Shown: piece after piece, positions 21,534 to 25,690 of the stretch
Layout: every line of letters starts with the position of its first letter
How positions within the stretch are numbered: position 1 is the stretch's first letter
Assembly: GCA_013177815.1 (NCBI GenBank)
Contig: JABLXM010000006.1
Location: forward strand, 1 to 47,816
Length of the DNA stretch: 47,816 bases
From: Anaerolineae bacterium
GTDB lineage: Bacteria; Chloroflexota; Anaerolineae; Anaerolineales; Anaerolineaceae
Reading direction: 5' to 3'
Program-made: the position numbers and the translations under genes
Notes under the pieces: generated by a model
Seen by the model: the letters and a program-made list of their open reading frames with translations, nothing else
What the model was told of the DNA's origin: nothing
Database searches by the model: none

Positions 21534-24386
21534 TTAAGGGATCAAGCCCAACTGACGCGCTTTTGATACCGCGTGAGTGCGCTTCCTGACTTCAAGCTTG
21601 GTATAGATGTTATAAGCGTGACGCTTGACGGTGTTCAACGCAAGGAATAGCTGCGCAGAAATTTCCTGGTTGGATTTCCCCTCGGCAATCAAACGCAGCA
21701 CTTCCATCTCGCGCATCGAAAGTGCGATGGGCGGACCGGATTCGGTTTCGATGACGGTTGGGCTGGATCGCTGCTTGACCCGCGGGGGCGATGCTTGCGC
21801 GATTCCATCGAAATGCGGGGTCTCTTCCAATAACTGTTGAATGAAGGCAACCGAAGGAAGATAACTGGTTGATGCCCGTTGGGCAGCCCGGCATTGCAGT
21901 AAGAGTTCTTTCAATCGCTGTCCTTCATCTAAAAAGACGCGCCGGTATCCTTCCGGTTCGCCCAAAGCCAATGCCTGCCGCAGTATATCTTTTGCCCGTT
22001 CATCCCCCAGAGCGAACTGCGCCATTGCCTTCAGTATTAATATTTCTATTTGCGAAGTAAACCTTTGGAAACGCTGCGCTTCGAACAGAAGTGGTTCCAA
22101 AAGGTTCAAAGCACGTTGGATGTCTTTCGAATTGCCCGTATCCTCGCCCGACAAGATCAGGAATCTGGCTTGAGTGAGCTGTAAATATTCGAAGACATGG
22201 TATGGATAACTCTCAAGCGCGATCGTCTCCGCGAGATCCGGGTATCCTCCCCTGACCCACCAGAGTTTTGCTTCTGTCAGGTCATGGCGTTGCAGCGCCA
22301 GCCGTGTCGAAACGGCAGAGATGACGGTATCGTCCCATTTACTGACCTCAGTGCTCAACGCCATGACCGAAGCTTCGGTCATGATCTCCTTCGCTTTTTC
22401 AACTTCCCCTTTTGCCTGGTACAGGCGCGCCAAAGTGATCATCCCATCCATATTACTGAATGACCACATTGGCTGAGAATTCTGATGCCCGCGCTCCAGG
22501 TAAATGTAGGCTTCGTCTAAATTATTGCGTTCGAACAAAACCTCACCAAATCCGGTATCCACCATACCGGCGAGTGGCAGGGGTGTTCCATCAGGACCCG
22601 TTGCCATGTACTGGGCTTTTTGTAGCGTAGCCCATGCCTGGTTTAGCTGCCCTTGCGACACCAATACATGCGCCAACTGACATGTGGAGGTGATCATCAC
22701 TAACAGGTTGTTGGCTTGTTTTGCAACCCGGCTCGTATCCCGCAGCGACTCGATCGCTTTTGGGTTATCCCCGGAAAGGATGAAATATAAGCTGTTGTCC
22801 AGGGAGATCAGACTGCGTATAAATGGGTTCTCGTCCTTCAGAACGCTCGCCGCCTGTTGGGTAAATTCAGCCGCCTTTTCGATATCACCGCTGAACAACG
22901 CCAGGGAGGATTGACACAGTGCCAATCCACCGCGAAGGTTCCATAAACCGGCATTCTCAAAGTTATTATCGACCTTAGACATTCCGGTGCCTGGCTCCAC
23001 TTCGATTTGATGTTCATATTGATCGAGCTGCCGCTTCAATTCCTCGATCCAGTACCGGGCAAGGTCTAAACGATAGGCAGCGATCAACCCCCAGGCATAA
23101 GGCAGGCTGAGGCGTGGTCGTTGACTGATGATCTCGTCAGGGAGCTTGCCCATCCAGTGCGTGAGCGTAAAGATCTCACCGGTTCTGATCATCGAATATA
23201 TATTGCGTTCGATCAGATCTGCTGCCCATTCCGGATCACCGGAAGCCAGCGCATATTCGAAGGCTTTATCCAAGTTTGCGTTCTGTTCGAACCAACTGGC
23301 AGCCCGCTTCTGAAGGACGGGTATTTCCATAGGGTTGATTTCTGTCTGAATATGGCGAAGGAAATCGACAAACAAGTGATGATAGCGAAACCATTCATGC
23401 TTGTCATCCAAAGCGCTGATGAACAGGTGGGAATGTTCCAGGCGGTTCAGCATGGCGGAGCCATACCCTGGTTGCGCATCAGGCTTGACCACCGCTTCTC
23501 ACAAGGAGCCGTTAAGCGAATCCAAAATGGAGCTCCTCAAAAGGAACTGCCGTATCTCTTCCGGCTGGCGGTCGAGCACTTCTTCGGCAAGAAAATCAAC
23601 CATGTAATGGGCGTCACCTTGTAAACTTTCCACCAGCTTTTCAGGGTCTGCCTGGTCCCTCAATGAAACTGCAGCCATTTGCAGCGCGGTAACCCAACCA
23701 TCCGTTCGCTTCTCGAGCGCCGTGATGGTCTCATCCGTAAGGTTCAACTGCATTGCTTGGCGAAAAAATAGCGCAACTTCATCGCTGGAAAACCGCAGAT
23801 CGTTCAATCCCAGTTCAGTCAACCAGCCTTTGGCACGCAGGAATGGCAGGTCGAGCGCAGGTTCGACCCGGCTGGCAATCACGATATGAAAATTATGCGG
23901 GATATGCTTGAGAATAAAGTTGATGTTTTGGAGAATTCCCTGATCCTCCAATTCCTGAAAGTCGTCACACACCAAAACCAGTTCCTTGGGCAGCGCCGCA
24001 ATTTCATTGAGCAGGATCGTTATGCCAACATCCAATCCGACACCCCAGGAAGAATGGATGATATCCAATGTGTCTTCACCCAGGTGGGGCTCTTGCGTTT
24101 GTAGCGCACCAACGAGATAGCCAAAGAAGCGGTTGATGTCATTATCATCAGGATCGATGCTCAGCCAGGCTAATGGATGTTCAGTCTTTTGCGCCCATTC
24201 GACCAACAAATTGGTTTTGCCGAACCCGGCTGGGGCAGCCACCAGGGTCAGTGGTCCTTTGACCCCCCGGTCGATGCGTTCAATGAGCCGTGGTCTGCTG
24301 ACAAATTCGGATGGCATTTTCGGGATCGAGATCTTCGTGCTCAGCAGCAGCCGTTCGTTGTTACCGGTTTCTTTGGGGTTAGCCAT
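21534..24386 (-). pseudogene. MalT-type LuxR-family regulator interrupted by one in-frame TGA
   Basis: One continuous frame of 950 codons carries a single TGA at 23499-23501 (codon 296). Upstream: NTPase domain with Walker A APAGFGKTN (51-59) and Walker B LVLVCDDFQEL. Downstream: ARM/TPR-like repeats and a LuxR HTH near the end (SMREMEVLRLIAEGKSNQEI, NTVKRHAYNIYTKLEV). Homologues have Cys exactly where the TGA stands (pattern LNGSLCDAV; here LNGSL-stop-EAVV). It is therefore a nonsense mutation, a sequencing error, or recoding. GTG 23492 could restart the C-terminal half. It follows the MFS gene by 53 nt and sits next to promoter B, so it is a candidate regulator of the ACTTT class. Confidence 0.82.
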
Positions 24387-24439: not shown

Positions 24440-25690
24440 TTATCCTTGATTTTCCGCCAATGATTTCGGCATCCAGAATATCATCAACAGCGCAGCCATC
24501 AACGCCAGGGTGCCGCCGAAGAAAAAGGGTGCAGAAGGTCCCAATCCATTCCAGGAGCCCACACCTTGCCACAGGATACCGGCGATCAAAGAAGATGGAA
24601 ATGCCAACAGTCCGATCACGGCATGGTACGTTCCATAAGCGGTGCCGCGCATATTATCTGGGACCAGATCCGCAACCATTGCGTTGGCTGTTCCGAAAGC
24701 CAAGCCAAAATACAGCCCATATGCCATATATAACAACCAGACCTGCCATGCTGTTTGCGCCAGTGCAAAGCCAAAGTAAATCGCAGCATAGACCAACCAG
24801 CCACCGATGATCAATCGCCGTCGACCAACACGGTCGGAAAGTGAACCGGCAGGTGTGGCGACCAGCGTGATAACCAGGTTATAGATTGCCAGCATGACCA
24901 AAATGCCCGTGACCGAGACCCCCAGATTTTGAGCGCGCAACACCAGGAAGGAATCCGCCGAGTTGCCCAGCGTAAAGATGCTGACGATCACCAAAAAGAC
25001 CTGGAACGGTTTGCCCAGGCTGCGCATGGAAAACTTTGGCGCTTCGCGTTGTCCTTTCACCGGCACGTCCTTCGCCCCAATCGCCAGCGAGAGCACCGCC
25101 AGGAAAGCTGGTACCAGGCTGATCAGTACGATCGTCTTGAAAGTAGATTCGGATAACTCGATGGTGTTTGCCTGCGCCAGCCAAACGACCAAAGCGGCAA
25201 TCACCAACCCCAGAACAGCGCCGGCTTTATCCATCGCCCGGTTGAACCCAAACGCCAGCCCGCGCATTTCTTTGGATGTCGAATCCGCCACCAGTGCGTC
25301 GCGTGGCGCGGTGCGTATCCCCTTGCCCACCCGATCCGCCCAGCGAACCCCGGCAATCAACCCCCAACTATTGGCAAAGAAAAAGAATGGTTTTGAGATC
25401 GTCGAAAGCCCATATCCGGCTACCGCCAACCATTTACGTCCTCCCAGCTTATCTGAAAGCCACCCCGAAAACATTTTTAAAATGCTGGAAGTGGCTTCGG
25501 CAACACCTTCGATGAGTCCAATGACGCTGGTTTGCACACCCAGAACATTTGCCAGGAATAACGGCAGGATATTGAGCACCATCTCACTGGAAATATCCAT
25601 AAAGAAACTTGTAAATCCCACTGCCCAAACATTACGGGGTAGCTGCTTGATTGATTTGCGTTCGGTTGAATTTACGCTTGTTTCTGCCAT
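24440..25690 (-). CDS. MFS transporter
   Basis: 416 residues with about 12 membrane segments. The MFS loop motifs are LSDKLGGRKWLAVAGY after helix 2 and LSDRVGRRRLIIGG in the second half. The block RWADRVGKGIRTAPRDALVADS is typical of a bacterial MFS subgroup of uncertain substrate. AAGGATAAC precedes the ATG and the gene starts 1 nt after the ATPase stop, so it belongs to the chrB-ATPase-MFS-regulator operon. Export of a toxic ion or metabolite is a reasonable guess. Confidence 0.87.
   Translation of the reverse strand: MAETSVNSTERKSIKQLPRNVWAVGFTSFFMDISSEMVLNILPLFLANVLGVQTSVIGLIEGVAEATSSILKMFSGWLSDKLGGRKWLAVAGYGLSTISKPFFFFANSWGLIAGVRWADRVGKGIRTAPRDALVADSTSKEMRGLAFGFNRAMDKAGAVLGLVIAALVVWLAQANTIELSESTFKTIVLISLVPAFLAVLSLAIGAKDVPVKGQREAPKFSMRSLGKPFQVFLVIVSIFTLGNSADSFLVLRAQNLGVSVTGILVMLAIYNLVITLVATPAGSLSDRVGRRRLIIGGWLVYAAIYFGFALAQTAWQVWLLYMAYGLYFGLAFGTANAMVADLVPDNMRGTAYGTYHAVIGLLAFPSSLIAGILWQGVGSWNGLGPSAPFFFGGTLALMAALLMIFWMPKSLAENQG

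Follow-up and report, generated by a model that had tools for sequence, protein, structure and literature searches.

A MalT-like regulator gene with one in-frame TGA

The stretch of DNA analysed here (the window; 47,816 nucleotides, contig C218) belongs to the metagenome-assembled genome of an Anaerolineae bacterium, the assembly of which comprises 3.24 Mb in 261 contigs with a completeness of 88.9%. On the reverse strand it carries a gene for a MalT-like LuxR regulator (21534..24386), which starts with an ATG at 24386, ends with a stop codon at 21536..21534 and encompasses 951 codons including this terminal stop. The remaining 950 codons are open except for a TGA at codon 296 (23501..23499 on the reverse strand; the forward strand reads TCA at 23499-23501), which is the sole internal stop. 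A first-pass annotation made from the sequence had described a single in-frame TGA at 23499-23501 in a frame of 950 codons that continues without any shift, and the reading of sequence and frame confirmed both points. An ORF for an MFS transporter (24440..25690) lies upstream of the regulator gene on the same strand, with 53 bases in between. The window did not match any family in an Rfam scan.

Under translation table 11 the gene is called as two ORFs on the reverse strand. The first half (23499..24386) encodes 295 amino acids and represents the N-terminal ATPase part, as judged from a match to AAA_16 that stays below the cut-off and from the alignment to the solved E. coli MalT core (PDB 8bob). 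The second half (21534..23492) encodes 652 amino acids and opens with a GTG at 23492, which is in frame and separated from the TGA by two intervening codons. It contains a MalT-type TPR region and a LuxR-type helix-turn-helix (HTH) domain, as the Pfam models TPR_MalT (PF17874, 193.5 bits) and GerE (PF00196, 65.3 bits) both match beyond the TGA and above their cut-offs, and with this combination of domains the protein belongs to the MalT-like regulators. The top NCBIfam match is MalT itself (equivalog NF003420), and as its 430.9 bits stay below the cut-off of 537 the regulator is called MalT-like and not MalT. Residues 14-428, i.e., a stretch spanning the TGA, align as one block with the core in 8bob (1e-50).

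The cysteine column and the constraint on the gene

In 58 aligned homologue rows the column of codon 296 contains 54 cysteines (27 TGT and 27 TGC codons), two valines, one alanine and the one TGA. The two valine rows (L053 and L058) are one gene represented twice, so that Cys is found in 54/57 distinct homologues, and the TGA is thereby aligned to a conserved Cys, as the first-pass annotation had stated for relatives. This conservation has exceptions: Val is found in a close orthologue and Ala in a paralogue, and E. coli MalT carries Ile. None of the six distinct close orthologues (54-62% identity) contains a stop, and at this column five have Cys and one has Val; in the phylogenetic tree the Val orthologue appears as weakly supported sister of the regulator gene (91/90). 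Three named relatives are metagenome-assembled genomes of Anaerolineaceae and Chloroflexota, and no genome of the same genus was present among 60 relatives or among the listed rows of a family search covering 147 genomes.

Judged from these alignments, the Cys at this column is frequent but replaceable, and it is not essential. As it is exchanged for small or hydrophobic residues (Val, Ala, Ile), it would occupy a structural place rather than a redox centre, and no redox role is indicated. The flank, LNGSL-*-EAVV, has no UxxC, CxxU or TxxU motif, and a further Cys or Thr at xxU spacing is missing as well. Such redox motifs are present in 15/17 families with a gain of selenocysteine (Sec) in place of Cys, according to PMC1794560.

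A random stop would only rarely fall on codon 296, since it would be struck by a random nonsense substitution with a calculated probability of approximately 0.002, i.e., roughly 1 in 500 (based on seven intact relatives, with transitions weighted three times). Apart from the TGA no further lesion and no relaxed constraint was detected in the regulator gene by frame, invariant columns or branch length. Of 294 columns without variation among the six orthologues it deviates at 20, compared to 8 to 49 for the orthologues when these are counted in the same way, and with 0.32 its end branch is within their range of 0.19-0.51. Inactivating changes in sister genomes, named in the first-pass annotation as what would point to a plain pseudogene, were not found; instead, the sister genomes carry intact copies. 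The single stop and the constraint within the range of the orthologues speak against an old pseudogene. With a constraint as in the orthologues, any real loss of the gene must be very recent, and a base error fits equally well; the intactness of the gene is equally consistent with a wrong base, with a mutation that occurred very recently and with a product of read-through. Stops are rare in these genes: two of 149 other homologue rows contain one, in both cases TAA, and one of the two lies right where the match terminates.

A further TGA at this column came from a search of genomes of the order with a DNA motif pattern, the Cys form of which recovers 35 of the 54 known Cys homologues. With a TGA at the Cys codon the pattern matched in two of 400 genomes, i.e., in the window's genome and in G285; the reversed pattern used as control had no match among the matches listed. 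G285 is a single-contig genome from another family of the order that also encodes a tRNA-Sec. Its gene, which is only distantly related (TGA at L089:9320-9322 in G285:C1; motif at G285:C1:3292314-3292366, reverse strand), encodes a full MalT-like frame that scores 438.8 bits against the MalT model, with the TGA as sole stop and the frame intact on both sides. The best relative of this gene (47%) has no stop, and neither has any of the 96 other homologue rows listed with it. From the probability for this codon, the stop counts in the 149 and 96 rows and an assumed few thousand such genes, approximately 0.02-0.1 additional same-column cases would be expected by chance, as a rough estimate. The gene in G285 thus comes as a mild surprise that could not be explained away. 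A scan of 396 genomes of the class (partly the same as those of the order) for TAA, TAG, TGA or TGG at this column gave no further MalT-like case; two matches (one TGG, one TGA) were rejected as they are not MalT-like by translation, and the reversed control also gave two.

Selenocysteine machinery and the RNA downstream of the TGA

The most prominent alternative to an ordinary stop is that the TGA is read as Sec by means of a downstream hairpin (23496..23449) together with tRNA-Sec and SelB, resulting in a full-length selenoprotein regulator. The Cys column described above and the second TGA in a genome that likewise encodes a tRNA-Sec are in favor of this alternative, as are a hairpin that comes within published limits in a 51-nt fold and the Sec genes that the first-pass annotation had proposed to look for. 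The genome encodes a tRNA-Sec with the anticodon tca, detected by ARAGORN and Rfam, and a Sec-type selD (358.5 bits) that contains an in-frame TGA of its own at codon 33 (L050:1531-1533) in the motif CAG-*-ASKL. Of selA only the last 195 codons (187.6 bits) and of selB only the last 280 codons (40.6 bits) are present; both stay below the cut-offs for whole proteins because they are cut off at contig ends. All four components, i.e., tRNA-Sec, SelA, SelB and SelD, are thus encoded, SelA and SelB as C-terminal pieces at contig edges, and judged from this gene content the organism can very probably make selenocysteine. The contigs C171 (L048) and C254 (L049) share their first 2069 bases, which are identical and cut selA at its middle; these are therefore duplicated contig ends, a sign of redundancy in the assembly.

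As the machinery is present, recoding is possible in principle. However, tRNA-Sec was found in 144 of 201 genomes sampled from the order, and the Sec system is therefore weak evidence for a role at codon 296. For the same reason, selenoproteins of this order of Chloroflexota may be under-annotated.

The published limits for a bacterial SECIS element (bSECIS) are a loop of 3-9 nt, a stem of 4-16 bp, a G within the first two loop bases, a spacing of 16-37 nt and a minimum free energy of at most -7.5 kcal/mol, as given in PMC13188914. In the strict form of the test applied here, the minimum-energy fold itself has to contain a hairpin within these limits, and windows of 42, 51, 60 and 72 nt after the TGA were folded. 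The regulator gene passes only at 51 nt, with a candidate SECIS-like stem-loop (23449..23496, reverse strand) that has a 9-nt apical loop, GCAACCAGG, 23 nt after the TGA; it is in agreement with the limits of PMC13188914 at this length and fails at 42, 60 and 72 nt. The pair probability of its inner helix is 0.5-0.7 in the 51-nt window and drops to 0.01-0.02 at 60-72 nt. Moreover, 577 of 4000 random codons of the genome and 5 of the 54 Cys homologues pass the same test at 51 nt, and the TGA of G285 is not followed by a SECIS-like hairpin at any of the four lengths. The first-pass annotation, which had seen no convincing hairpin, was nearly right in this respect: one hairpin does come within the limits in 51 nt, yet it depends on the window and such passes are common at random codons. 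In contrast, the genome's own selD passes at 42, 51, 60 and 72 nt alike. The z-score of the 51-nt fold is -1.06 for the regulator compared to -2.27 for selD (rows L052 and L059 left out of this comparison), and the RNA downstream of the regulator TGA is not unusually stable. A stable stem-loop fold was observed directly 3' of the selD TGA. Looser scans were rejected as too permissive, since 587 of 1500 random codons passed; in a loose scan 14 of 39 rows passed, including the regulator gene, and the rows L008, L016 and L029 were placed at the wrong motif.

Apart from the unstable hairpin, decoding as Sec is opposed by the absence of TGA from the six close orthologues and from the 96 rows listed with the G285 relative, by the exchange of the Cys for Val, Ala or Ile and by the missing redox motif. 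Beyond the close orthologues, a homologue with TGA turned up once in the 400 genomes searched from the order, in the distant G285 gene that has no bSECIS. Taken together, insertion of Sec at codon 296 is considered improbable, and it is mainly the G285 case that keeps us from rating it lower still. To our knowledge, the regulator would be the first MalT-like selenoprotein. In the literature searched, including the available portions of PMC1088965, PMC13188914 (a review from 2026), PMC12013277 and PMC1794560, no MalT-like or LuxR selenoprotein was found, and neither the accessible text of this 2026 review nor the other literature searched yielded a selenium-gated transcription regulator.

Interpretation and comparison with known systems

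It could also be that the gene still works despite the TGA, either in two pieces by a restart at the GTG shortly behind it or by low-level near-cognate read-through. The unshifted continuation of the frame, the in-frame GTG at 23492 and the constraint that appears to act on the whole gene are in agreement with this idea. However, the break falls within residues 14-428, for which the alignment to 8bob is continuous, and apart from G285 no relative is split at this place, as the two stops in the 149 other rows are both TAA and the 96 rows of the G285-related listing contain none; a two-piece or leaky gene is hence regarded as very improbable. That TGA is a sense codon throughout the genome has nothing in its favor beyond the single codon and is refuted, since in a 387-kb sample 80 of 170 ORFs that do not overlap and have 300 codons or more terminate with TGA, and the next stop follows after a median of 22 codons. 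TGA is the commonest stop in this sample and is therefore a normal stop in this genome. A coding-potential survey for interrupted genes covering 387 kb gave 17 candidates, which by eye were mostly gene borders and antisense frames; the known regulator case was absent from these candidates, which shows that the survey lacks sensitivity, and it was not used to derive a rate.

In our view the TGA is therefore highly likely to be an ordinary premature stop, originating either from a very recent nonsense mutation or from a consensus error in the metagenome-assembled genome. A single-base change would have affected one codon within a MalT-like regulator gene (STAND ATPase, TPR region and LuxR-type HTH domain) that is intact elsewhere; it may have arisen very recently in the population that was sampled, or the consensus base may be wrong in this assembly of 261 contigs. 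If the TGA is real, translation would stop after the ATPase core, the product would lack the DNA-binding domain and the regulator would presumably be switched off. The comparison of sequences favors such an ordinary stop, with six of six close orthologues free of stops, a replaceable residue, unremarkable RNA downstream and TGA as a normal stop, and the state of the assembly, with its many contigs, its completeness of 88.9% and its duplicated contig ends, favors it as well. Against it stand the low probability of a hit at codon 296, the matching TGA in the G285 gene and the capacity of both genomes to decode Sec, although most of the order shares this capacity. The ranking in the first-pass annotation, with recoding as the least likely option behind nonsense mutation and sequencing error, stands; its interpretation as a whole was partly supported, as the ranking and the Cys stated for relatives hold while the Sec machinery, the hairpin and the replaceability of the Cys modify it.

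As things stand, the finding matters little, since it concerns a single interrupted regulator from a draft genome. There is a very small chance that MalT-like STAND regulators of Sec-decoding Chloroflexota of this order have gained Sec at the Cys column on two or more occasions, i.e., in this gene and in that of G285. If this were true, a transcription regulator would respond directly to the supply of selenium, as the full-length DNA-binding protein would only be made in the presence of charged Sec-tRNA. The locus is furthermore a useful test of the standard selenoprotein search, since it combines a Cys/TGA pair with a genome that has the Sec genes. Yet Sec genes are common in the order, and the usual SECIS limits let through 577 of 4000 random codons even when applied strictly.

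Compared to E. coli MalT (STAND ATPase, TPR region and HTH domain; PDB 8bob), the regulator aligns over residues 14-428 and shares the domains TPR_MalT and GerE; E. coli MalT differs in having Ile where the regulator has the TGA, and the regulator stays below the NCBIfam cut-off for the MalT equivalog. With bacterial selenoproteins, represented by selD of the same genome, it has in common an in-frame TGA at a column where relatives have Cys, in a genome with Sec genes. However, selD has a stable downstream fold that passes the SECIS test at four of four window lengths, whereas the regulator gene passes at one of four, is devoid of a redox motif and has no close relative with a TGA. From lone nonsense changes in metagenome-assembled genomes it is distinguished by the position of the stop exactly at a frequent Cys column, a 1-in-500 place, and it resembles them in its one stop, its otherwise intact frame and its intact relatives.
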